From Myxococcaceae bacterium (GTDB lineage Bacteria; Myxococcota; Myxococcia; Myxococcales; Myxococcaceae): DNA of 58,808 nucleotides. The notes under the pieces are model-generated. The model saw only the letters and a program-made list of their open reading frames with translations. It did no database searches and was not told the origin of the DNA. Location of the stretch: contig RPRB01000010.1 of NCBI GenBank assembly GCA_003818285.1, positions 1 to 58,808 of the forward strand. Reading direction: 5' to 3'. Shown here one piece after another: positions 4,306-54,911 of this stretch; within the stretch, counting starts at the first letter, position 1; each line of letters begins with the position of its first letter. The translations under genes were made by a program, and so were the position numbers.

Positions 4306-4312
4306 AATCGGC

Positions 4313-4327
4313 GTCTCAGAGAACTCG
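4313..4327 (+). repeat. Dispersed 15-bp element, exact copy
   Basis: GTCTCAGAGAACTCG followed by TTTTCGG. It starts 7 nt after the glcD-like stop codon, in the same direction as that gene. Confidence 0.9.
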
Positions 4328-4364
4328 TTTTCGGAGTTCACGCCGCGGTCCAGGTCCGGTCGAG

Positions 4365-4379
4365 GTCTCAGAGAACTCG
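4365..4379 (+). repeat. Dispersed 15-bp element, exact copy
   Basis: Second copy in the same intergenic region, 52 bp after the first, same orientation, preceded by GAG and followed by TTCCTCGG. Confidence 0.9.
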
Positions 4380-4462
4380 TTCCTCGGACCCCTCCCCCGG
4401 TCGGCTGTCCGGAGGGGTGCCAAGCACTCGACGCAGCGGTACAGAACCCGTCTTCGTGAAAC

Positions 4463-4477
4463 GTCTCAGAGACCTCG
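4463..4477 (+). repeat. Dispersed 15-bp element, one mismatch
   Basis: GTCTCAGAGACCTCG: the same A-to-C change as in the copy at 33715-33729, so this looks like a recurring subtype. Preceded by AAAC and followed by TTAGAGG. Confidence 0.85.
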
Positions 4478-4687
4478 TTAGAGGTGAATGCAGTCGGCGC
4501 GTCGAGCCGGCCTCGCGCTCGACTCGCACGGAAAACCCGAGCAGTTCCGGGCTCCCGCGAGGGGCAGCCTCCCGCCCGTCGGTGAGGCACAAGAGCGGCC
4601 GATTCCTCTCGTAAGAGGGAAGAATGCCCAGGTTCCCGGCTGTTGCAGCCCGGCGAAACCTTGGGGCTCTTCGTGCGTCCAAAAAGT

Positions 4688-10355: not shown

Positions 10356-11453
10356 GTGCGGGTGCTGGACCTCACGCGGCTCGCGCCGGGGCCGTACGCG
10401 ACGCTCGTCCTCGCGGACCTCGGGGCGGAGGTGGTGAAGCTCGAGCCTCCCGAGGGCGATGCCACGCGCCAGATGCCGCCCGGAGGCGCGGGCGAGCTGT
10501 TTGGAGCGCTCAACCGAGGCAAGCGGTCGCTGGTTCTCGACCTGAAGCGCCCCGGGGCGGTGGAGGCGGTGAGACGGGTCCTCGCCCGGTGCGACGTGCT
10601 GGTCGAGGGGTTCCGGCCAGGGGTGATGGACCGCCTGGGCCTGGGACATGAGGCGCTGCTCGAGGCCTTTCCGCGGCTGGTGGTGTGCGCGGTCTCCGGC
10701 TTCGGGCAGACCGGACTGGATCGGCTGCGGGCGGGACATGACCTGGGCTACGTGGCGCGGGCGGGACTCCTGGCGATGGGGGGGCGTGATGGCGAGCCGG
10801 CGATGCCGGGGCCGCAGGTGGCGGACATCGGCGGAGCGTGGACCGCGGTGTGCGGGATCCTGGCCGCGCTGCTGCAGCGGGCCACGACGGGTCGCGGGCG
10901 GCTGGTCGACGTCTCGCTGGCCGAGGCGGCGACGTCGTTCGGCGCGCTCCAGCTCGGCCCGGCGCTTCTCGGGCTTCCCGTACCGCCGGCGGGGCAGGGC
11001 GCGCTCGACGGCGGGCTCCCCTGTTACGGCCTCTACCGGACGGGGGACGGGCGATGGCTGGCGGTGGCGGCGCTCGAGCCGAAGTTCTTCACCGCGCTGT
11101 GCGAGCGGCTCGGCCTCGGGGACCTCACGGCGGAGGCATACGGCGGCGGCGAGGAGGCGGAGCGGGTGCGGGCGTTGCTGGCCCGGACGTTCGCCGGGGC
11201 TCCGCTCGAGACCTGGCGAGAGCGTCTGGCGGGGCTGGATGCGTGCGTCGAGCCGGTGCAGCTGCCGGAGGAAGTCTGCCGGGACGCGCACCTGGCGTAC
11301 CGGGGTCTGTTCCCCCGGCCGGGCGTGCTGGCGACGCCCCTCCACCTCGGGCCGCCGGCGTCGGCTCCCGCGCCCGGCCTGGGGGAGCACACCCGGGAGG
11401 TGCTGGCCGAGGCGGGGCTCAGCCCCGCCGAGATCGACGCGCTGGTGGTCTGA
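10356..11453 (+). CDS. CaiB/BaiF family CoA transferase, AMACR-like
   Basis: Family III CoA-transferase fold, at least 365 residues. The N-terminal VRVLDLTRLAPGPYATLVLA and later ADLGAEVVKLEPP are family hallmarks. The stretch RAGHDLGYVARAG followed by the PQVADIGGAW segment matches alpha-methylacyl-CoA racemases, which use the His of GHD and the Asp of VAD to invert the methyl-branched centre; both are present. The aspartate nucleophile usual for true CoA transferases is not evident. I give GTG 10356, but the homologous start (G-LPLSGVRVLD) lies a few residues earlier and the only in-frame candidate is a rare CTG at 10305 overlapping the SCP2 stop. Racemase is the favoured role. Confidence 0.85.
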   Translation: MRVLDLTRLAPGPYATLVLADLGAEVVKLEPPEGDATRQMPPGGAGELFGALNRGKRSLVLDLKRPGAVEAVRRVLARCDVLVEGFRPGVMDRLGLGHEALLEAFPRLVVCAVSGFGQTGLDRLRAGHDLGYVARAGLLAMGGRDGEPAMPGPQVADIGGAWTAVCGILAALLQRATTGRGRLVDVSLAEAATSFGALQLGPALLGLPVPPAGQGALDGGLPCYGLYRTGDGRWLAVAALEPKFFTALCERLGLGDLTAEAYGGGEEAERVRALLARTFAGAPLETWRERLAGLDACVEPVQLPEEVCRDAHLAYRGLFPRPGVLATPLHLGPPASAPAPGLGEHTREVLAEAGLSPAEIDALVV

Positions 11454-11467
11454 GGCGGGCGAGCGAC

Positions 11468-11482
11468 GTCTCAGAGAACTCG
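11468..11482 (+). repeat. Dispersed 15-bp element, exact copy
   Basis: Starts 14 nt after the CoA-transferase stop codon and points the same way as that gene. Forms an inverted pair with the copy at 11561-11575. Confidence 0.9.
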
Positions 11483-11560
11483 CTCGGCCAGCAGACCGGA
11501 GCCGGTCGAACACGGTCCCCGGCGACGCTCCCAACGATTTCAGTCAGTTATGGTCAAGAA

Positions 11561-11575
11561 CGAGTTCTCTGAGAC
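11561..11575 (-). repeat. Dispersed 15-bp element, exact copy, inverted
   Basis: Reads CGAGTTCTCTGAGAC on the plus strand. Inverse partner of the 11468 copy, preceded by AAGAA and followed by the ATTTTCCGG direct repeat. Confidence 0.9.
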
Positions 11576-11730
11576 ATTTTCCGGAGACATTTTCCGGCCA
11601 GTTCCTCTTTGACCAGGAGGCCTAGCGACCGCTCGTGCATTTGGTAAGTGGGCACCCCCCGTGTCCGCGCGTCTTCCGCCGGCGCGGCCGGACAGGCGAC
11701 GAGCGGTCTTGCGCAGGCCCGGCGCCTATC

Positions 11731-14419: not shown

Positions 14420-15112
14420 TCAGTAGACGCCGCCCTGCAGGTGGAGTCCCGATGCACCGAGCAGGGTCCGACCGAGGGCGCTGAACGCCGGGTCGCGGGC
14501 GAGCGTGTCGCGCTGGAAGACCCGGACCCGGTACTCCCCGGCGCGTGCGCCCTCGAAGATCCAGAGCGAGCCGGAGGCGACGGTGGGCAGGGAGGCGGGA
14601 CGCGTCGGGGGGCTCCAGAAGCTCGCGGCGTCGATCTGTGTGACGAGGTCCCGGACCTGGCTGGGCGGGGCGAGGGCGGTCGACTCCTCGAGGAGGTCGC
14701 CGGGGGTGTCGAGACCCTTGCCGTTGGTCTGGGCGCCTCGCAGCTGACCGGACTCGCCCTGGCGCTCGAAGCGGACGCTCACCGGGTGGGCGCCGGGGCG
14801 GATCCAGAGCAGGCGGTACACCTCGGCAGCGTGGGGGAGGGGGAACAGCGAAGGTTCGCCCAGGGCGTTGAGCTGGCCGGAAAGCCCGCACGCGAGTGCG
14901 TGCTCCGCTCCTCCCGGTGGACCAAGGGAGCCCTTCGGGAAGTCGGAGGGGACGCTGCTCCCGTCCCCGAGATCGCAGTCCTCGAACACCGCCTGTCCGA
15001 CTGGCGCTTCGACCCGCGCCGGGGCGGGCTGGTACGTCTCGTGGGCGCAAGCTGCGCTGAGCGCGACCAATCCCAGGAGCCCCGCGCCGCTCGGGCGGCT
15101 AATTCTCGTCAC
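14420..15112 (-). CDS. Predicted lipoprotein, function unknown
   Basis: A 230-residue protein with a lipoprotein signal: basic MTRISR, a hydrophobic stretch and the lipobox LSAAC (Cys about residue 22). The mature part is Pro/Ala/Gly-rich with few secondary-structure cues. It has a Cys pair (ACAHE... EDCDLG... LACGLS), a repeated LWI-type beta pattern (YRLLWIRPGAHPVSVRFERQ, SLWIFEGARAGEYRVRVF), and no known catalytic motif. The beta-rich segments resemble small carbohydrate- or protein-binding folds, but I do not name one. GTG 15112 is the start. Two dispersed repeats lie upstream. Outer- or inner-membrane attachment cannot be told; residue +2 is Ala, not Asp. Confidence 0.7.
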   Translation of the reverse strand: MTRISRPSGAGLLGLVALSAACAHETYQPAPARVEAPVGQAVFEDCDLGDGSSVPSDFPKGSLGPPGGAEHALACGLSGQLNALGEPSLFPLPHAAEVYRLLWIRPGAHPVSVRFERQGESGQLRGAQTNGKGLDTPGDLLEESTALAPPSQVRDLVTQIDAASFWSPPTRPASLPTVASGSLWIFEGARAGEYRVRVFQRDTLARDPAFSALGRTLLGASGLHLQGGVY

Positions 15113-15170
15113 GACGGAAAGCTAGGGCCGAGGCCATTTGCCCGCAAGGCAGGCGACCGAACACCCGAAA

Positions 15171-15185
15171 CGAGTTCTCTGAGAC
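15171..15185 (-). repeat. Dispersed 15-bp element, exact copy, inverted
   Basis: CGAGTTCTCTGAGAC on the plus strand, between the tyrS 3' side and the lipoprotein promoter region. Neighbouring copy at 15279 has the same orientation. Confidence 0.9.
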
Positions 15186-15278
15186 CTCGAACCAGGGATT
15201 CCCCGACCGAGGCGCGCCACGCCTCGCCCGAGGGGGCCCCATTCACGTGGGGCAGCGAGTTCAGGTTTCTCGGTCAAA

Positions 15279-15293
15279 CGAGTTCTCTGAGAA
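15279..15293 (-). repeat. Dispersed 15-bp element, one mismatch, inverted
   Basis: CGAGTTCTCTGAGAA. The changed last base makes a perfect 13-bp palindrome GTTCTC-T-GAGAAC, exposing the dyad symmetry that is imperfect in the consensus. It lies 55 nt downstream of the tyrS stop, in the tyrS direction. Confidence 0.85.
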
Positions 15294-15348
15294 CTGCCCC
15301 CGGAACTCCCTCCCGCCCTCCCGGTCGACCGAGGCCGCTGGAGCAGCG

Positions 15349-16602
15349 TCAGCGGACGGTGAGGCGGGCAGCCCGAAGCTTCCCCACCTGGACCAGATGG
15401 GTGCCCGGGGCGAGCTCGGCCTTGAAGTCGGAGATGCGCTCGCCGTCGACCTTCACTGCTCCCTGCGTGAGGAGGCGACGTGCCTCGGAGGTGGAGGCGA
15501 CCAGCTGGGCCTCGAGCAGGGCCCGGACGAGCGGCACCGGCGTGTTTCCAGTCCCGACCACCACCTCGGGGAACTTGTCTGGGTCCACCTCGCGCCGCGA
15601 GAACCGGCGCTCGAACTCCTCTGCTGCCCGGGCAGCTGCCTCGGCCCCGTGGAAACGGGCCACCATCTCCCGGGCGAACGCCACCTTGACGTCCTTCGGA
15701 TGGAGCTCGCCTCGAGCCACCCGCTCCCGGTCGGCATGGATCACCTCGAGCTGACGACCCGAGAGCAGCTCGGTGTACCTCCACATCAGGTCGTCGGACA
15801 TGCTCATCAGCTTCCCGAACATCTCCGACGGGGGCTCGGCGACCCCCACGTAGTTGTCGAGGGACTTGGACATCTTCTCGCCGACGATGCGTCCGTCTTC
15901 CATCCGCGCGTCGAGGCCCTCGAGGATCGGCCCGGTGAGGATGACCTGCGGCTCCAGGCCGTACTCGCGCATCAGGGTCCGGCCGACGAGGAGATTGAAC
16001 AGCTGGTCCGTGCTGCCGAGCTCCACGTCCGCCTTCAGCGCCACCGAGTCGTACCCCTGGAAGAGCGGGTACAGGAGCTCGTGCATCGAGATGCTCCGGC
16101 CCTCGCGGAACCGGGTCTTGAAATCGTCGCGCTCCAGCATCCGTGCGAGCGGCCAGTGCGCCGCCAGCCGGACCGTTCCCTCGGTTCCGAGCGCATCGAG
16201 CCACTCGGAGTTGAACCGGATCTTCGTCCGCTCCGGGTCCAGCACCTTGAAGACCTGCGTCTTGTAGGTCTCGGCGTTGGCCAGGACCTCCTCCCGGCTG
16301 AGCGCGGGGCGAGTGACGTTCTTTCCGGAGGGATCACCGATCATCGCGGTGAAATCCCCGATCAGGAAGACCACCTCGTGCCCGAAGTCCTGGAACCGCC
16401 GCATGCGGGTGAGAAGCAAGGTGTGGCCCAGGTGCAGGTCGGGCCGGTTCGGGTCGAAGCCGGCCTTGACGATGAGCGGCTGTTCGCGCTCGTACGCGCG
16501 GCGGAGCTTGGAGCGGAGCTCGTCGGCGACCTGGAGGTCGACCGTGGCCCGGGTGACCTCGGCGAATTGCTCGTCGGGAGTGGCGTGGCGAAGGAGCGAC
16601 AT
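15349..16602 (-). CDS. tyrS: Tyrosyl-tRNA synthetase
   Basis: A 417-residue class I synthetase that charges tRNA-Tyr. The HIGH-type motif reads HLGH (in PDLHLGHTLLL, about residues 55-60) and the KMSKS loop is intact (GEKMSKSLDN, about 240). The C-terminal S4-like RNA-binding domain (ARRLLTQGAVKVDGERI) is present. The length and HLGH form place it in the TyrZ/TyrRS2-like bacterial branch. It is the last gene of a minus-strand run with the YmdB-type phosphodiesterase and the folate enzyme, 33 nt after the former. ATG 16602 is well placed. Confidence 0.95.
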   Translation of the reverse strand: MSLLRHATPDEQFAEVTRATVDLQVADELRSKLRRAYEREQPLIVKAGFDPNRPDLHLGHTLLLTRMRRFQDFGHEVVFLIGDFTAMIGDPSGKNVTRPALSREEVLANAETYKTQVFKVLDPERTKIRFNSEWLDALGTEGTVRLAAHWPLARMLERDDFKTRFREGRSISMHELLYPLFQGYDSVALKADVELGSTDQLFNLLVGRTLMREYGLEPQVILTGPILEGLDARMEDGRIVGEKMSKSLDNYVGVAEPPSEMFGKLMSMSDDLMWRYTELLSGRQLEVIHADRERVARGELHPKDVKVAFAREMVARFHGAEAAARAAEEFERRFSRREVDPDKFPEVVVGTGNTPVPLVRALLEAQLVASTSEARRLLTQGAVKVDGERISDFKAELAPGTHLVQVGKLRAARLTVR

Positions 16603-18436: not shown

Positions 18437-19261
18437 GTGCCCCGGCTCCTGCTTGCCACCACGCTTTGTGCCGTGCTCGGTGCCGGATCGGCATCTGCCG
18501 CGGTGCCCTTGCTGGCGTCGCGCGCTCGCTGGGGCCCGAAGGGCGTCCTGACGTGGCAGGCCGTGAACGACCACGTGCTCGGGCGAGCCGGGGAATCCAA
18601 TCCGTGCGGGTTCGAGACGGGCCGAGCAGTGGTGGACGCGGCGTGGGAGGGCGACGTGCTCGCCGGCCGGCTGACGCTCTGCACCTCCTGCGGGGAGCGC
18701 ACGGTGCCCTACCTCGGGGTGCACGTGTCGGCGAACGGGACGGTGGTCGCCGATGTGTCGCCGTCCCTGGTGCCAGGCTGCGAGTCGCCGGGCCTGGACC
18801 GCCGCGGGAGGCTCATCCTCGAGCCGCTGGCCGAACCGGCCGGCCGGCCGCCCCTGCCCCATCACCTCGAGGCAGGCGAGAAGCTGCTGCAGCTGCGCCG
18901 GGGCAAGGCGGCGCAGGCCGAGTTCCAGAAGGCGCTCGCGGCGAAGGAGGACCCGGGGAAGGCCTGGCTCGGCATCGGTCTCTCCGCGGTGCTGCTCGGA
19001 GACGCCGAGGCGGCGGTCGCGGCCTACCAGAAGGCGAGGTCCTTCGCGCCGAGCGTGCTCCTCTCCTACAACCTGGCCTGCGCACAGGCGCGGCTCGGGC
19101 GCGTGGACGAGGCGCTCGCCAGCCTGGGCGACTCGATCGAGCGGGGCTTCGCGGCGTCCGATGACCTGCTCCGGGACCCCGACCTGGCACCGCTCCGAGG
19201 CGACCCGCGGTTCTCGTCTCTGCTGGCGCGGACCAAGAACAACGAGGAGCGGCGCCGGTGA
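18437..19261 (+). CDS. Exported TPR-containing protein
   Basis: A 274-residue protein with a signal peptide from GTG 18437 (PRLLLATTLCAVLGAGSASA). The first half holds three Cys (NPCGF, CTSCG) and beta-like segments, then a linker. The C-terminal half has two or three tetratricopeptide repeats: AEFQKALAAKEDPGKAWLGI (about 156-175), then repeats starting at AAVAAYQKA and VDEALASLGD. It ends with the 'ASDDLLRDPDLAPLRGDPRF' pattern seen in TPR proteins of many bacteria. Its stop overlaps the start of a Ser/Thr kinase gene (GTGA), so the two are co-translated and may work together, for example with the TPR protein reporting an envelope state. That link is inference. Confidence 0.75.
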   Translation: MPRLLLATTLCAVLGAGSASAAVPLLASRARWGPKGVLTWQAVNDHVLGRAGESNPCGFETGRAVVDAAWEGDVLAGRLTLCTSCGERTVPYLGVHVSANGTVVADVSPSLVPGCESPGLDRRGRLILEPLAEPAGRPPLPHHLEAGEKLLQLRRGKAAQAEFQKALAAKEDPGKAWLGIGLSAVLLGDAEAAVAAYQKARSFAPSVLLSYNLACAQARLGRVDEALASLGDSIERGFAASDDLLRDPDLAPLRGDPRFSSLLARTKNNEERRR

Positions 19262-20199
19262 AGCAGTCCGAGGTCGTCCTCTGGTCATCCGGGGCGCGGT
19301 TCGGCCACTACGAGATTCTGGCCCCGCTCGGGAAAGGCGGGATGGCGGAAGTCGTGCGGGCACGGACGCTCGATGGCCCATGGGCGGGCACCGAGGTTGC
19401 GATCAAGCGGCTCCTGCCACAGCTCGCGCGCGCGCCGGAGTACGTCCAGCTCTTCGCCAAGGAGGCCGAGCTCTCCATCGCGCTTCGACATCCCAACATC
19501 GTCCAGACGCTGGACGTCGGGGCCATCGGCGGCGTGGCCTACCTGGCGATGGAATGGGTCGACGGACGGGATCTCGGACAGGTGCTTCGCCGTTGCCGAA
19601 AGCAGGGGATCGCGCTCCCGATCGACTTTGCGGTGTACCTCGCGCGCGTGCTGCTGGAGGCGCTCGATTACGCGCACCGGGCGGAGAACGCGAGCGGCAC
19701 GCCGCTCCAGGTGGTTCACTGCGACGTTTCACCGTCCAACGTGTTCATCTCGCGGGTGGGCGAGGTGAAGCTGGGCGACTTCGGCGTGGCGCGAGTCCGG
19801 GTGAAGTCGGGTGTCCGCGATGCGGTGATTGCCGGGAAGCCGTACTACCTGTCTCCGGAGGCGACGGCGGGGGAGGTGACACAGGCGGTGGACCTGTGGG
19901 CGACCGCGGTGGTGCTGTTCGAGCTCCTGACGCTGGAGCGCCCGTTCCAGGGGAGCAACCCGCCAGAGGTGTTCGGGGCCATCCGCGCAGGTCGGAGAAA
20001 AGGGGTCCGGGAGCGCCGGCCCGAGGTGACAGGGGGGCTGGAGGCGGTGGTCGACCGCGCGCTTGCGGCGGATCCGCGGGTGCGCTTCCCGACCGCAGCG
20101 GAGTTCGCCGCCGCCCTCGAGCCGCACTGTGACGAGCGAATCGGCACGCCACTCGCGATCGCCGCGCTGGTCCGTGGCCTCTTCGGCGCCGCCGGCTGA
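19258..20199 (+). CDS. Ser/Thr protein kinase (PknB/Hanks type)
   Basis: A 313-residue cytoplasmic kinase without a membrane helix. Glycine loop GKGGMAEV (25-32), ATP-anchoring K50 (VAIK), catalytic loop HCDVSPSN with D156 and N161, and the DFG motif D174-G176 (LGDFGVAR) are all present, so it should be active. The HxDVSPxN form is typical of the large myxobacterial kinase family. The activation segment is AGKPYYLSPEA. The chain ends soon after the kinase domain, with no sensor part, so its input must come from a partner, possibly the TPR protein translated just before it. The 15-bp element starts 5 nt after its stop. Confidence 0.93.
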   Translation: MKQSEVVLWSSGARFGHYEILAPLGKGGMAEVVRARTLDGPWAGTEVAIKRLLPQLARAPEYVQLFAKEAELSIALRHPNIVQTLDVGAIGGVAYLAMEWVDGRDLGQVLRRCRKQGIALPIDFAVYLARVLLEALDYAHRAENASGTPLQVVHCDVSPSNVFISRVGEVKLGDFGVARVRVKSGVRDAVIAGKPYYLSPEATAGEVTQAVDLWATAVVLFELLTLERPFQGSNPPEVFGAIRAGRRKGVRERRPEVTGGLEAVVDRALAADPRVRFPTAAEFAAALEPHCDERIGTPLAIAALVRGLFGAAG

Positions 20200-20204
20200 A
20201 CGAC

Positions 20205-20219
20205 GTCTCAGAGAACTCG
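20205..20219 (+). repeat. Dispersed 15-bp element, exact copy, flanking the transposase
   Basis: Starts 5 nt after the kinase stop codon, same direction, followed by TTTCGAG. With the copy at 21428 it brackets the Y1 transposase gene in direct orientation. The 237 nt between this copy and the transposase 3' end show no gene; a short in-frame stretch (VDGALAHGELTLHEVAAT) could be debris. Confidence 0.9.
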
Positions 20220-20456
20220 TTTCGAGAGCGTTCCTCGCTCGGGAGACGCTGGGTGGACGGTGCGCTGGCGCACGGCGAGCTCACGCTCCACGAGGTGGCT
20301 GCGACTTAGGCGCGTCGGGTTCGTGAACCCGAGTACGATCGGGGAGACCCTCGGCGTGCCTTCGGCTCGTTCGAATGCGAGATGCGCGCTGCCGTCAGGC
20401 GCGTTGGCTAGGGAGCAACCCCGGGTTGGGAAGCGAATTGTCCGCTGTATCCGGCT

Positions 20457-21377
20457 TTAGCCCGCCAGCGGCGGGTACACCGCAGGCCAGACGAAAGGCT
20501 TGATGGCCCCGAGCGGAAACTCGGCCCCGAACTCACCGCGGCGCCATCTGGCCGATGCCGCTCGGAAACTCGCAACGTAAGCCCGGTAGTGCTCGATGAA
20601 CGCTCGCCGGACTGTGGCGTGAGTTGCGTGACAATACGGTCGCGGTGACCGCTTTGGCCGAGAGGGACGATGATGCGGATGCTGGGAGAGCACTGCGGCT
20701 CGCCCCAAGACGCGCTCGTGGGTCCCCTCTGCCTCGCGCTCGGTTTTCCGGACGAGTTCGAGCACGCAACGTGCGCGGTGTTTTCTCGACAAACCCGCCC
20801 AATGGGGGAGCACAGCGAGCTCGAGCGTCTCCCGCTCTGCCCAGCGCGGGTGAAAGCGGTCAGTTGATGCCTGATCGTTTCGCGCTTTCCAGCGATTGGA
20901 CCACCCGAACCAAAGGAAGGTTCTCCGAGAGCCGCGGACGAGCATCCTGAGGCAGCTCAGTCCGGGCCAGTCCCGACATCTGCGGACCAACCCGTCCTTC
21001 ACCCCTTGGGCAAGGACGTACCGCAGCCGCTCGACCAGTGCCTCGTCGTCGAGAACCGGCTCGGCCGAGTAGCGCCGCTCCCAGAAGGTGCCGCGCCATC
21101 GCACGAGCCAGCCGACCTTTCGTGCGACGTTGCCCATGACGTACTGCATGAACTTCGAAAGGTTTCCGCGCGGTGCACGGACCAGGAGATGGAGGTGGTT
21201 CGACTGGAAGCTGAACGCGAAGACCTCGACGCCCATGAGTCGCGCCCCCCTCGCCAGTACACCGCCGAGGACCTCATTCGTCTCGCGTGACGGACGCATG
21301 AGCATTCGCGCCTGGCAGCACCTCGCCGTGACAAAGACTGCCAGCCCAGGAATCAACAACCTGAGCGGATAGCCCAC
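20457..21377 (-). CDS. Y1 (HUH) transposase, REP-associated (RAYT) type
   Basis: About 306 residues of the IS200/IS605-like Y1 transposase superfamily, solitary-gene (RAYT) branch. The N-terminus (PLRLLIPGLAVFVTAR) matches the 'plri..pg..yhvt.R' entry. The HUH metal site is SNHLHLLV, and LSKFMQYVMGNVARKVG followed by FWERRYSAEPV corresponds to the tyrosine helix. The classical 'tYaRyfN' Tyr position is Val here, so the nucleophile is uncertain; Tyr sits five residues earlier. The C-terminal part (HPHHRPSRPKRSP and later) is typical for the myxobacterial/planctomycete subgroup. GTG 21377 has a ribosome site (AAGGGGG); the frame opens at 21422. No inverted-repeat IS ends; direct copies of the 15-bp element flank it. 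Confidence 0.82.
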   Translation of the reverse strand: MGYPLRLLIPGLAVFVTARCCQARMLMRPSRETNEVLGGVLARGARLMGVEVFAFSFQSNHLHLLVRAPRGNLSKFMQYVMGNVARKVGWLVRWRGTFWERRYSAEPVLDDEALVERLRYVLAQGVKDGLVRRCRDWPGLSCLRMLVRGSRRTFLWFGWSNRWKARNDQASTDRFHPRWAERETLELAVLPHWAGLSRKHRARCVLELVRKTEREAEGTHERVLGRAAVLSQHPHHRPSRPKRSPRPYCHATHATVRRAFIEHYRAYVASFRAASARWRRGEFGAEFPLGAIKPFVWPAVYPPLAG

Positions 21378-21427
21378 GCGTTCCCCCTTGCCGGAGGAGG
21401 GCACCAGCACGAACCAGGCCAAGCGAC

Positions 21428-21442
21428 GTCTCAGAGAACTCG
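21428..21442 (+). repeat. Dispersed 15-bp element, exact copy, overlapping the cysteine desulfurase stop
   Basis: Read on the minus strand as CGA-GTT-CTC-TGA-GAC, it encodes the last three residues (Arg-Val-Leu) and the stop codon of the desulfurase gene. It is also the right-hand flank of the transposase gene. Related sequence (GACTCGATCGAG) continues into the coding region. Confidence 0.9.
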
Positions 21443-22537
21443 ATCGACAACTCGCTCAAGGACTCGATCGAGGGTCTGGAGGAGGGCGGTGACGTCCGCC
21501 TCGGTCGTATCCCGGCCGAAAGAGATGCGGATCGAGCCGCGCGCGTCCCGCTCCGACACCCCCATCGCCAGCAGCACCGGCGACGGCCGCATCGTTCCCG
21601 ACGCGCACGCCGCACCCACCGACACCGCGAATCCTTCCAGGTCTAGGGCCATCAACAGCGTCTCGGCATCTGCCCCGGGGAAACACACATTGCTCGTGTT
21701 CCCGAGCCGCACCGCCCCCGCCCCGTGCACCCGCACCCACGGTCGTGCCTCGCACAGCGTTCGCTCGAACCGGTCGCGCAATGTCGCAACCCTCGGACCT
21801 TCCGATCCCCTGCTCCTCTCCGCCAGCTCCAGCGCAAGCGCCGCCGCCTCGCAGAGCACCACCGCCGGCGTGCCGCCCCGGAGCCCGCCTTCCTGATGCC
21901 CAGGCACCAGCGGCTGGAGGGGGAGCCCCCGCCGGACTGCCAGGATCCCCACTCCCGCCGGCCCGCCGAACTTGTGCGCGGAGTACGCGACCACGTCCGC
22001 CTCGGACTCGGGTGGGAGCCGGGCCGGCGCCTGCACCGCGTCCACGAAGCTTGTCACCCCTCGCGCGCGCGCCATCCGCGCCACCTCGTCCGAGGGCTGG
22101 ACCACGCCGGTCTCGTTGTTCGCCGCCTGCAACGCACACAGGCCCGCGCCGCCCATCGCCGCCTCCATCGCCGCCGGCTCCACCCGCCCATCCGCCGCGG
22201 GCCGCACCTGGACCACCGGGGACCCGCGCCGCTCGGCCGCAAGCAGCACACAGGGGTGCTCGATGGCGCTGGTCACCAGGGCGGCCCCTCGGCCGACCCC
22301 GAGCACCGCCATGGCACACGCCTCGGACCCGGACGCGGTGAAGAGGACCTCGCGAGGAGCTCGGCCCAGGATGCGTGCCACCCGCGCCCGGGCCCCGTCG
22401 AGCCGCGCCCGGGCCGCTCGCCCGGGGCCGTGAACGCTGCTCGGATTGCCCGCAGTCTCCCGCCGGTACGCGGCGGCGAGGAACTCCGCCACCTCCGGGT
22501 GGAGCGGCGTGCCGGCGTTGTGGTCGAGGTAGGTCAC
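21431..22537 (-). CDS. Cysteine desulfurase, NifS/IscS family
   Basis: A 368-residue PLP enzyme that takes sulfur from cysteine for Fe-S clusters or thio-cofactors. The N-terminal YLDHNAGTPLHPEV, the PLP lysine K189 in SAHKFGGP, and the catalytic persulfide Cys311 in GAACASGTMRPSPVL are present. NNETG at 140-144 contacts PLP. The C-terminus (DRVLERVVDRVL) is repetitive because it runs into a dispersed 15-bp element that supplies the stop codon. The start ATG overlaps the stop of the DHH phosphoesterase gene (ATGA). No iscU or iscR is nearby, so the sulfur acceptor is unknown. Confidence 0.92.
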   Translation of the reverse strand: MTYLDHNAGTPLHPEVAEFLAAAYRRETAGNPSSVHGPGRAARARLDGARARVARILGRAPREVLFTASGSEACAMAVLGVGRGAALVTSAIEHPCVLLAAERRGSPVVQVRPAADGRVEPAAMEAAMGGAGLCALQAANNETGVVQPSDEVARMARARGVTSFVDAVQAPARLPPESEADVVAYSAHKFGGPAGVGILAVRRGLPLQPLVPGHQEGGLRGGTPAVVLCEAAALALELAERSRGSEGPRVATLRDRFERTLCEARPWVRVHGAGAVRLGNTSNVCFPGADAETLLMALDLEGFAVSVGAACASGTMRPSPVLLAMGVSERDARGSIRISFGRDTTEADVTALLQTLDRVLERVVDRVL

Positions 22538-25340: not shown

Positions 25341-26038
25341 GGGGGGTGGGGGGCGCAGCGAGGGCGGGGGAGGCTAATCGCCTCGGACGCACTGCGCAAG
25401 AGTCGGCCGGGCGTTCAGCCGCCCGGGAACACTGCCTGCCCGCTGACCACTCTGGAGGGGACGCGCGGCAGTGCGCCGGCCGGCGAGGTCCCCGGCGCGG
25501 TCTCGGAACTCGTCCGCCGGCGAGGTTCTCCGCCGACGACTTCTCTGAGAACCCATCGGAATGCGTCAGAGAACTCGTCGGAACCCCGGCCTGAAACCGG
25601 AGAGTCCGCGACCCGCCTCCCGGCGCCCCCAGAATCTCGGAGAACTCGTCGAGGTCGGTCCCGAGTTCCGGACTCCGGCCAACGTCTCAGAGAACTCGTC
25701 GCAGAGAACTCGTCGCACCGGCCGGCAGGCGCGCTCGGCAGAGAACCCGTCGAAACTCCTGGGGATGAGGTCTCCGACCGGGGGCCAGCCGAGTGCCACT
25801 GACGTCTCAGAGAACTCGCCATCGAGAACTCGTCATCGGCCTGACGGGGAGGGCCAGCCGAGCCCTCCTGAGGTCTCAGTAAACGCGTTCATCGGCCTGA
25901 CCGGAGGGGCCAGCGGGGCGCCACCGAGGTCTCAGAGAACTCGTCGGGGCTCGATGGCGCCGCCGGCGACGACCCTGGAGAGATCCGGCCGACGTTCCTC
26001 CGAGAGCGCCCCGTGCCCGCCGGCCGTGCCCACCCCGC
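25341..26038. other. 698-nt intergenic region dominated by decayed repeats
   Basis: Between two minus-strand genes. The left 150 nt (25341-25490) is GC-rich with no feature I can name and should hold the Fic-gene promoter. The rest is the repeat cluster listed separately. Reading frames across it are produced by the repeats (recurrent EFSE/ENSS-type peptides) and are not judged genes. Confidence 0.6.
25535..25945. repeat. Cluster of at least nine intact and decayed 15-bp elements
   Basis: Exact copies lie at 25684-25698, 25804-25818 and 25929-25943. Degenerate ones lie near 25540, 25565, 25634, 25702, 25738, 25823 and 25873. From about 25823 the cluster becomes a tandem array with a period near 56 bp, each unit being the element followed by CATCGGCCTGAC, a G-rich stretch and GGCCAGC. 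It looks like local amplification and decay of one element type. The nearest genes point toward the minus strand. Confidence 0.8.
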
Positions 26039-26986
26039 TCAGACGTACGTGAGCCACTCCGAGTACCGGGGCTCCTGGCCTCGGACGACCCGGAAGTACG
26101 TGTCCTGGACCTTCTTCACCACCGGCCCGGGGGCCCCGGTGCCGATCCGCCGGTTGTCCACCTCACGGACCGGGGTGATCTCCGCCGCCGTCCCGGTGAA
26201 GAACACCTCGTTCGAGATGTACAGCGCATCGCGGGTGAAGGTGACCTCCTCCACCGGGTGCCCCATGTCCTTCAGGATGCGGAGCACCGAGCGCCGCGTG
26301 ATGCCGGCGAGGATCGGGGAGGACAGCGGCGGCGTCCGCACGATGTCCTTCTTGTTCACCATGAACACGTTCTCACCCGAGGCCTCGGCGACGAAGCCCG
26401 CCATGTCGAGAAGGATGGCCTCGTCATAGCCCGCCTGCACCACCTCGCGCTTCGCGAGGATGCCGTTCACGTACTGTCCGGTGATTTTCCCCCGGACCAT
26501 GTTCACGTTCACGTGCATGCGGGTGAAGCTCGACACCTTCGCCCGGATTCCCTCGCGCATCCCCTTGTCGCCCAAGTACGCGCCCCAGTCCCACGCCGTG
26601 ATCGCCACACGGGTGGGGTTCACCGCCCCGAGGCCCATCGCCCCGTCGCCCATGAAGGCGATCGGCCGCAGGTAGGCCCCGTTCGAGAACCGCTGCCGCT
26701 GCACCCGGAGCACCTCCAGGCAGGCCTCGCAGAGCTGGTCCTCGCTGTAGGGCAGCTGCAGCTGGATGATGTGGCACGAGTCGGCAAAGCGCTTCATGTG
26801 CTCGCGCAGCCGGAACACTGCCAGCCGCCCGTCGTGCGTGCGGTAGGCGCGGAGGCCCTCGAACACTCCCAGCCCGTAGTGCAGGGCGTGGGTCATGATC
26901 GGCACCTGCCCCTGCGCCCAGGGGATGATCTTCCCGTCCAGCCAGATGCTGTCTGCGGTGAGGATCGCGTTGGAGGTCGAGCTCAT
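26039..26986 (-). CDS. ilvE: Branched-chain amino acid aminotransferase
   Basis: A 315-residue class IV PLP aminotransferase that interconverts Val/Leu/Ile and their 2-oxo acids. The opening IWLDGKIIPWAQGQVPIMTHALHYG, GVFEGLRAY, the PLP-lysine region (MVRGKITGQYVNGILAKREV) and 'GYDEAILLDMAGFVAEASGENVF' are all family signatures, as is the GTAAEITPVREVDNRRIG stretch near the C-terminus. ATG 26986 is the preferred start; an upstream frame extends to 27007. It is a single gene downstream of the receiver-TPR protein and just upstream of the repeat cluster. Confidence 0.95.
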   Translation of the reverse strand: MSSTSNAILTADSIWLDGKIIPWAQGQVPIMTHALHYGLGVFEGLRAYRTHDGRLAVFRLREHMKRFADSCHIIQLQLPYSEDQLCEACLEVLRVQRQRFSNGAYLRPIAFMGDGAMGLGAVNPTRVAITAWDWGAYLGDKGMREGIRAKVSSFTRMHVNVNMVRGKITGQYVNGILAKREVVQAGYDEAILLDMAGFVAEASGENVFMVNKKDIVRTPPLSSPILAGITRRSVLRILKDMGHPVEEVTFTRDALYISNEVFFTGTAAEITPVREVDNRRIGTGAPGPVVKKVQDTYFRVVRGQEPRYSEWLTYV

Positions 26987-33488: not shown

Positions 33489-33598
33489 CTCTGTCCGGTC
33501 ACCGGCGGAGCCCCGCCGCGGGTCGATTCCCGAGGGGGCCGCCGGTGACCTCCGGGGCGCGCCCGACTCGGGGCCTTGCCGATTCCTTCGCGTCGAAC

Positions 33599-33613
33599 GT
33601 CTCAGAGAACTCG
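33599..33613 (+). repeat. Dispersed 15-bp element, exact copy
   Basis: About 110 nt after the small membrane-protein gene, same direction. It faces the inverted copy at 33678, giving a second inverted pair in the window. Confidence 0.9.
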
Positions 33614-33677
33614 TCAGTCGAACGTCAACGGAGAAGTTCGGCCGGGACGGACGACGCGAGGACGCGATCTCGAAAAA

Positions 33678-33692
33678 CGAGTTCTCTGAGAC
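33678..33692 (-). repeat. Dispersed 15-bp element, exact copy, inverted
   Basis: Inverse partner of the 33599 copy, centre-to-centre 79 bp; flanked by AAAAA on the element's 3' side. Confidence 0.9.
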
Positions 33693-33714
33693 ATGGCTCG
33701 TGACCTGGTTCGAA

Positions 33715-33729
33715 CGAGGTCTCTGAGAC
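33715..33729 (-). repeat. Dispersed 15-bp element, one mismatch, inverted
   Basis: Same CTCGAG-side variant as at 4463 (GACC for GAAC). It begins 14 nt after the stop codon of the AglZ-like gene, in that gene's direction. Confidence 0.85.
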
Positions 33730-33743
33730 CTCCGCCGGCTCGG

Positions 33744-53522: not shown

Positions 53523-54911
53523 ATGGAACCGGTCACGGTCATCGGCGCGGGGCTCGCCGGGAGCGAGTGTGCGGTGCAGCTCGCGCGGCGCGGCATCCCC
53601 GTCCGACTGTGCGAGATGAAGCCTCTCCGGCGGAGCCCGGCCCACCGGATGGACGGGCCGGCAGAGCTGGTGTGCAGCAACAGCTTCCGGTCGGACAGTC
53701 CGGAGACGCCCATCGGGATCCTGCACGCCGAGCTCCGCCGGCTCGGCTCGGTGATCCTCGGGGAGGCCGACCGCTGCCGCGTTCCCGCCGGTGAGGCCCT
53801 GGCCGTGGACCGGGACCGCTTCTCCGCAGGCGTCGACCGCGCGCTCGGCGCGGCGCCGGGACTCCTCCGGGTGGTGGGCGAGGTGGAGGCCCTGCCGTCC
53901 GGCGACGTCGTGATCGCGACCGGGCCGCTCACCTCGGAGGCGCTGACGGGGGCGCTGTCCCGCTGGACCGGGGACAAGCTCTACTTCTACGACTCCATCG
54001 CGCCCATCGTCGCCGCCGACTCGGTGGACGAGACCATCGCCTTCCGGGCGAGCCGCTGGGGCCGCGGGGACGGCGCGGACTACCTGAACCTGCCGCTGGA
54101 CGAGGCCGGGTACCGCGCCTTCGTCCGGGAGGTGGTGGCGGCGGAGAAGGTGGTGCCCCATGCGTTCGAGGAGCCGCGCTACTTCGAAGGGTGTCTGCCC
54201 ATCGAGGTGATGGCCGAGCGGGGGGAGGAGACACTGGCGCACGGCCCGATGAAGCCGGTGGGCCTCGTCGATCCGCGCACCGGGCGGCGCCCGTACGCGG
54301 TGGTGCAGCTCCGCCAGGAGGACGTGGGCGGGACGGCCTACAACCTGGTGGGGTTCCAGACGCGGCTCACCTGGCCGGAGCAGCGGAGGGTGTTCCGGAC
54401 GTTGCCGGGGCTGCAGTCCGCCGAATTCCTTCGCATGGGCCAGATTCACCGGAACACGTTCATCGACGCTCCGCGGCTGCTCGGGCCGGACCTGTCGCTC
54501 CAGGCCGAGCCGCGGGTGTGGTTCACGGGGCAGATCTCCGGGGTGGAGGGCTACGTGGAGTCGGCGGCGTCCGGGTACCTGGTGGCGCTGGCGGTGGCGG
54601 CGCGCCGGCAGGGGCGGGCGTTCCTGCCCCCGCCGGGTGAGACGGCGCTGGGGGCGCTGTACCACCACGTGACGGGGGCGGCGCACCCCCCCGGGACGGA
54701 GTACCAGCCCTCCAACGTGACCTTCGGGCTTTTCCCTCCCTTGCCCGGCCGGGTCCCGAAGTCCGGACGCCGCGAGGCCCACGCCGCCCGCGCCCGCGCC
54801 TCTCTTTCTCAGTGGATCGAGTTCTCTGAGACGTCGTCTTCCCCGTCGTCGGGGCCGGCGGCGTGGACGGGGACGTCCGGCATCGTGGACCCGGCGGCGG
54901 TGGCCCGGTGA
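53523..54911 (+). CDS. trmFO: Methylenetetrahydrofolate--tRNA-(uracil-5-)-methyltransferase
   Basis: A 462-residue FAD/folate-dependent enzyme that makes ribothymidine at tRNA position 54. It has the N-terminal FAD motif [20 protein letters not shown], the folate/redox region [20 protein letters not shown], and [21 protein letters not shown], all characteristic. The conserved core ends near [11 protein letters not shown] (about 400). Beyond about residue 432 the chain reads IEFSETSSS and a Pro/Gly/Ser tail: these bases are a dispersed 15-bp element read in frame, so the natural end seems displaced by about 31 residues. The stop overlaps the start of the next gene (GTGA). This is the gid position in the topA-trmFO-xerC-hslVU order. 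Confidence 0.93.
54818..54832 (-). repeat. Dispersed 15-bp element, exact copy, inside trmFO
   Basis: CGAGTTCTCTGAGAC on the plus strand, read in the trmFO frame as part of I-E-F-S-E-T. It is the only copy seen inside an accepted coding sequence apart from the desulfurase end. It has ATCGAG-type context like the copy at 21428. Confidence 0.9.

Follow-up and report, generated by a model that had tools for sequence, protein, structure and literature searches.

A probable REPtron-like mobile system with a long Y1 transposase and its own dispersed palindromes in Myxococcaceae

Introduction

The REPtrons and REPINs of the REP/RAYT (TnpA-REP) type combine a single-Tyr HUH protein of the TnpA-REP fold with flanking palindromes, copies of which are dispersed, mostly outside genes, singly or in direct or inverted pairs. 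Each transposase has one palindrome family and several families can share a genome. The spread of REPs by RAYTs is still unproven, and most work has been done on GTAG-type REPs in gammaproteobacteria. The myxobacterial locus described here resembles these systems in all of the above features but its palindromes are near-symmetrical 19-bp dyads with CGA(G)..CTCG arms that lack the GT[AG]G foot. Its transposase is longer, with a C-terminal extension, and carries Y---Q, or Y---H in the sister proteins, instead of Y---NP; furthermore, the copies are concentrated near the transposase, and those at the gene itself are in direct orientation. With neither the GT[AG]G foot nor the Y---NP motif, the system does not qualify as a canonical REP family.

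Among published categories, TIRtrons (PMC3733652) and the TnpA-Y1 subclasses of PMC6006769 come closest. The TIRYT proteins of TIRtrons (Di Nocera 2013, PMC3733652), which largely correspond to TnpA-Y1 subclass 2.1 of Quentin 2018 (PMC6006769), are likewise long Y1 proteins that possess a C-terminal domain, and their flanking repeats are unrelated to GTAG, in some cases self-complementary, and dispersed as moderately abundant families (PMC3733652). The repeats at the present locus, in contrast, are direct rather than inverted terminal repeats, and no GGGGWSAS motif was seen in them. No REP-like sequences were found for the long subclasses 2.1 and 2.3 (PMC6006769). The TnpA-Y1 class 3 shares atypical non-GTAG hairpins near the gene and a Gln in the Tyr motif with the present system, but has a median length of 178 aa, a Y----Q motif and a CnGA foot (PMC6006769), compared with ~305-321 aa and Y---Q/H followed by GVK here. 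The IS200/IS605 TnpA proteins share the HUH-Tyr core and the fold, whereas the protein described here is longer, has no near-identical copies in its host and is far outnumbered by its palindromes. By description, the long Y1 protein with its C-terminal extension and Y---Q/Y---H motif fits none of the published subclasses compared (PMC3733652, PMC6006769). Names of the Sorangium or Myxococcus type are not mentioned in the main text of either paper. A search of openly readable literature yielded no relevant paper on REP-associated tyrosine transposases in myxobacteria, and the element sequences are absent from the literature searched, apart from one unrelated paper.

Results

The element and the transposase in the window

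The window, that is, the whole 58.8-kb stretch of DNA analyzed, is the entire contig C35 of the host genome G000 (5.77 Mb in 502 contigs, rated 100% complete, with 3.5% contamination). The 15-mer GTCTCAGAGAACTCG is present in the window in 20 copies, of which 13 are exact, 4 differ at one position and 3 at two, against 0.17 expected from shuffled sequence. The first-pass annotation had counted 16 copies when allowing one mismatch; the repeat itself stands and the recount gives 17. The statement that essentially all copies lie between genes is true of most of them, the exceptions being 54818, inside trmFO, and 21428, at the stop codon of a gene. The two exact copies in direct orientation that had been reported to bracket a Y1 gene (20457-21422, minus strand) are indeed located at 20205 and 21428 and have the identical 19-bp core CGAGTTCTCTGAGACGTCG. 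The following features are discussed below; lengths in the congeneric genome G001 are given alongside, that at the transposase unit from blastn of the window against it.

4313..4477, plus strand: three intergenic element copies (4313, 4365, 4463); stretch 4306-4525, 218 bp here, 77 bp in the congener
11468..11575, both strands: inverted element pair (11468 plus, 11561 minus); stretch 11453-11727, 274 bp here, ~23 bp in the congener
15171..15293, minus strand: direct element pair (15171, 15279); stretch 15049-15349, 300 bp here, ~103 bp in the congener
20196..21464, no single strand: whole inserted unit (transposase and two elements); 1,270 bp here, ~33 bp in the congener
20205..20219, plus strand: element copy on one side of the transposase, 6 bp past the protein-kinase stop codon (gene 19258-20199)
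20457..21422, minus strand: Y1/HUH transposase, RAYT-like, 321 aa from TTG, with HUH H76-x-H78, catalytic Y135 and a long C-terminal extension
21428..21442, plus strand: element copy on the other side of the transposase, a direct repeat of the first, overlapping the end of gene 21431-22537
25537..25943, no single strand: seven-copy cluster with local tandem duplications; stretch 25380-26039, 659 bp here, ~63 bp in the congener
33599..33729, both strands: three copies (33599 plus, 33678 minus, 33715 minus), an inverted pair and one more; stretch 33512-33732, 220 bp here, ~0 in the congener
54818..54832, minus strand: single copy, in-frame in the C-terminus of trmFO (GidA family); insertion relative to contig C272 of the congener

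A palindromic repeat thus flanks the gene and is dispersed in intergenic DNA, as in REPtrons. The element at 21428 furnishes the stop codon of gene 21431-22537 (class-V aminotransferase, cysteine-desulfurase-like), which ends in CGA GTT CTC TGA. In trmFO, the element at 54818 lengthens the C-terminus, a protein-coding change compared to the congener.

The 15-mer is part of a degenerate 19-bp palindrome, the symmetrical form of which is CGAGTTCTC-A-GAGAACTCG, and covers its loop and a single arm; the first-pass annotation had thus seen only this portion. An alignment of 29 copies shows that the motif continues leftward as CGA[C/G] and rightward as T[T/C], yielding the imperfect 19-bp dyad CGA-nn-TCTC-A-GAGA-nn-TCG. 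Copies with GAGACCTCG (33715) or GTTCTC (15279) are perfect or nearly perfect palindromes, and the copy CGAGTTCTCAGAGAACTCG in the genome G060 is a perfect 19-bp palindrome. The single-stranded DNA folding energies vary from -2.2 kcal/mol (21428) to -12.3 kcal/mol (11468). The first-pass annotation, which had seen no stable hairpin, was only partly right: it holds for some copies, including the pair that flanks the transposase (-2.2 and -4.2 kcal/mol, weak hairpins only), but not for 11468, for 33715, which folds with a 7-bp stem, or for the G060 copy. No conserved GTAG or GTGG that would correspond to the GT[AG]G hairpin foot was detected among the 29 aligned copies of the window family; in the sister families, the 5' flanks are GTAA, ATTA, GATC or GTCA-like.

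The transposase matches the Pfam Y1_Tnp family with 33.1 bits (cut-off 23) and the NCBIfam equivalog REP_Tyr_transpos with 52.9 bits, under the cut-off of 80. Judging from the alignment of V17 with the MGWPLRM start of its relatives, the true start is probably near 21374, which would give a protein of ~305 aa. The residues H76, H78 and Y135 are invariant across 26 homologs. The Tyr motif is RYVLAQGVKDGLV (YVLAQG, Y---Q) in the window protein and mostly Y---HGVKEGLV in its relatives; the Class 2 motif Y---NP is absent from the window protein and is found only in a more distant group of homologs. Position Tyr+4 holds a metal ligand, as in IS608. The AlphaFold2 model (pLDDT 85.6) has as its top PDB fold match 4er8, the E. 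coli TnpA-REP structure containing a REP hairpin (E 2e-7, TMt 0.73). This match covers the core only and leaves out ~160 C-terminal residues. The protein is a Y1 HUH transposase with a TnpA-REP-like core.

Presence and absence in related genomes

The congener is syntenic with the window and mostly 79-89% identical to it; a divergence of 11-19% blurs the exact insertion junctions and any preference for particular targets. No copies of the element were detected in the searched genome sequence of the congener. Every one of the eight window sites is empty there, and the whole 1.27-kb transposase unit is absent as well; the element-bearing intergenic stretches are each ~140-1,240 bp longer in the window. 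Alignment of related genomes, which had been proposed as a way to see movement, thus reveals filled and empty sites, and conservation of copies at orthologous sites, previously named as counter-evidence, is not observed in the congener. At the site of the unit (20196-21464), the matches on either side lie only 450-630 bp apart in G004, G007 and G008 by their coordinates, and there is no match whatever to the window transposase in G008. Given these short gaps and the lack of a transposase match in G008, gain of the unit in the host lineage appears to be the simpler reading, the direction being suggested by its absence in four relatives.

Pattern searches of the entire host genome identify 23 copies at up to one mismatch and none with the reversed-pattern control, which is the genome-wide count that the first-pass annotation had called for. 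Of these, 17 are on C35, which makes up 1% of the genome (58.8 kb); the other element-bearing contigs are C62, C87, C79 and C29. Synteny with G008 places C62 (477-501 kb), C35 (543-601 kb) and C87 (702-709 kb) as neighbors, with C62 and C87 mapping within ~40 and ~100 kb of C35, respectively; C29 and C79 were not located by the synteny search in the 320-720 kb region of G008.

Sister transposases and their palindromes

Six paralogous transposases, three in the host genome and three in the congener, are each flanked by palindromes of their own, with 12-22 bp palindromic sequences shared between the flanks:

contig C112: GAAGGTGTCTGGCACCTTC
contigs C262 (host) and C417 (congener): GAGGTGTTTGGCACCTC
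contig C282: GAAGGTGTTTGACACC
contig C198: GAGGTGTTTGACACCTC
contig C254: GAGGTGTCTGACACCTC

The C262 and C417 proteins are sisters in the tree and the core GAGGTGTTTGGCACCTC is common to both. Among the paralogs, each RAYT-like gene is accompanied by its own REP-like family. The host paralogs are 51-52% identical, and no near-identical copies are encoded in the host genome, which has four transposases, only ~50% identical to one another, and more than 100 elements. We also observe a second, larger and related palindrome family, AGGTGTYTGRCACCT, matched 162 times in the host genome (0 in the control) and 99 times in the congener at up to one mismatch; this sequence is near-palindromic, so that both strands of some sites contribute to the counts, and at least 100 exact places are present in the host. 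The family occurs across the host genome, for example, at L336 229-14702 and L231 17246-17356, and its sub-variants correspond to different transposase paralogs.

G007, G028, G027 and G004 carry GTGTCAAAGAACTCG or a close variant of it as their element, and in G007 and G004 the elements are inverted around the gene, like terminal repeats. Many transposase remnants also carry elements. At some loci, e.g., in G028, G027 and G018, an automatic comparison of the two flanks gave no shared 11-mer of the palindrome type. The clustering of copies around RAYT genes that had been anticipated is found in G007 and G028, far above chance: 23 of the 35 copies of GTGTCAAAGAACTCG in G007 (0.2 expected) and 18 of the 70 in G028 (0.4 expected) are located within 1.5 kb of transposase genes or their remnants. 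Short tandem-like palindrome arrays are present near transposases in G028 (L347 2529-2677 and 3397-3403) and G007 (L344 5503-5592), suggesting local tandem growth like that of the cluster at 25.5 kb in the window.

Co-occurrence across genomes

Among 61 genomes, 9 match the transposase strongly (E below 1e-60), and 7 of these are element-rich (more than 10 matches to one of three element patterns), compared to 1 of the 52 without such a match (Fisher P 6e-7, an optimistic value given the relatedness of the genomes and a threshold picked after inspection of the data). Element abundance thus follows the presence of the transposase. G055 and G018 encode the transposase and have few matches to the patterns tested. 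Conversely, G003, which is 78% complete, contains 17 palindrome matches (C123, C312, C402, C666, C973) with no transposase detected, reflecting either loss or a missing contig.

In the Deltaproteobacteria MAGs G060, G061 and G062, nearly the same 14-bp core adjoins homologous Y1 genes, the products of which are only ~27% identical to the window transposase. Coevolution does not readily explain a common core at this level of divergence. Some perfect palindromes and inverted pairs are located beside Y1 genes in these MAGs (L199, L198, L210, L194, L356, L357). Pattern scans of viral and genome contigs returned, among the matches listed, mostly single hits across unrelated phyla, which are probably due to chance; several copies were found, among the same listed matches, only in the Deltaproteobacteria MAGs ZE-3nov15-121 and RE-9nov16-221 and in MAG AM_0240.

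Discussion

Taken with the linkage of the palindromes to the transposase and the catalytic residues, four lines of evidence, namely, the empty sites in the congener, the paralogs with palindromes of their own, the element counts that track the transposase, and the fold match to TnpA-REP, support the REP/RAYT-type reading first suggested for this locus. Most probably, this is a REPtron-like mobile system, in which the transposase would recognize the bracketing element as its site and multiply it as a non-autonomous product. The enzyme would act as a single-Tyr HUH endonuclease on single-stranded DNA, probably recognizing the palindrome as a hairpin on the lagging strand or at the replication fork. 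It would cut beside the hairpin and rejoin the ends, producing new single or paired copies of the element in nearby intergenic DNA. Together with its two elements, the transposase would have entered the locus as one unit. A local or cis preference of the enzyme would account for the clustering near the transposase, and the clusters appear to grow locally as well, by later tandem duplication, because the cluster at 25.5 kb contains tandemly duplicated units of 14 bp and ~56-69 bp.

An ordinary IS200-like insertion sequence or a TIRtron, with the palindromes as transposon ends and the scattered copies as decayed or internally deleted remnants, would fit the inverted elements around the gene in G007 and G004, the many element-bearing transposase remnants and the single 1.27-kb insert in the window. 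This explanation is nevertheless unlikely: there are 20 copies for one gene in the window, a whole-genome transposase search found no remnant in the other window inserts, the host genome has over 100 elements for four transposases of ~50% identity, and the window copies are direct rather than inverted. We consider it quite unlikely, too, that the contig comes from another organism, in which case the genome-wide clustering would be a binning artefact and the REPtron itself real. The 3.5% contamination of the bin and the near restriction of the element to C35 would be compatible with such an artefact, but the tetranucleotide usage of C35 resembles that of the rest of the bin, synteny and 81-89% identity link it to the congener, no second gene copies of a tested 19.9-kb stretch exist in this bin, which is rated 100% complete, and the element-bearing contigs C62 and C87 adjoin C35 by synteny. 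A foreign contig was rejected on composition, synteny and the absence of duplicate genes.

The first-pass annotation had also offered a chromosome-organizing site and a DNA-uptake signal as alternatives, and both are disfavored. A regional site for a dimeric host DNA-binding protein, whether chromosome-organizing, parS-like or regulatory, would agree with the palindromic 19-bp shape and with the concentration of 17 of the 23 copies in 58.8 kb, with C62 and C87 within ~40 and ~100 kb in G008. It is, however, very improbable given that the eight window sites and indeed any copy are missing from the searched congener sequence, that copies arise with local duplications and one interrupts trmFO, and that the sister palindromes accompany transposases. 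An uptake signal could likewise be a short, exact, dispersed motif, but such signals are found genome-wide in hundreds to thousands of copies; the 5.77-Mb host genome has only 23, most of them within 1% of its length, which makes this explanation extremely improbable.

Returning to the REPtron-like interpretation, we tentatively propose, as a possibility somewhat short of even, a separate branch in this order that would be characterized by a long Y1 protein with a distinct C-terminal domain, an altered Tyr motif, matching GTAG-less CGAG..CTCG palindromes and preferential spread, local or in cis, into the chromosome near the gene. Palindromes are now assigned to long Y1 proteins, the long subclasses 2.1 and 2.3 of which had been reported without any (PMC6006769). 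A single genus contains at least seven transposase-palindrome pairs, two of which, those of sister transposases, share a core, whereas the others differ. Together with a congener in which eight sites are empty, these pairs make the specificity of recognition, the mechanism of insertion, and local as opposed to genome-wide spread directly testable.
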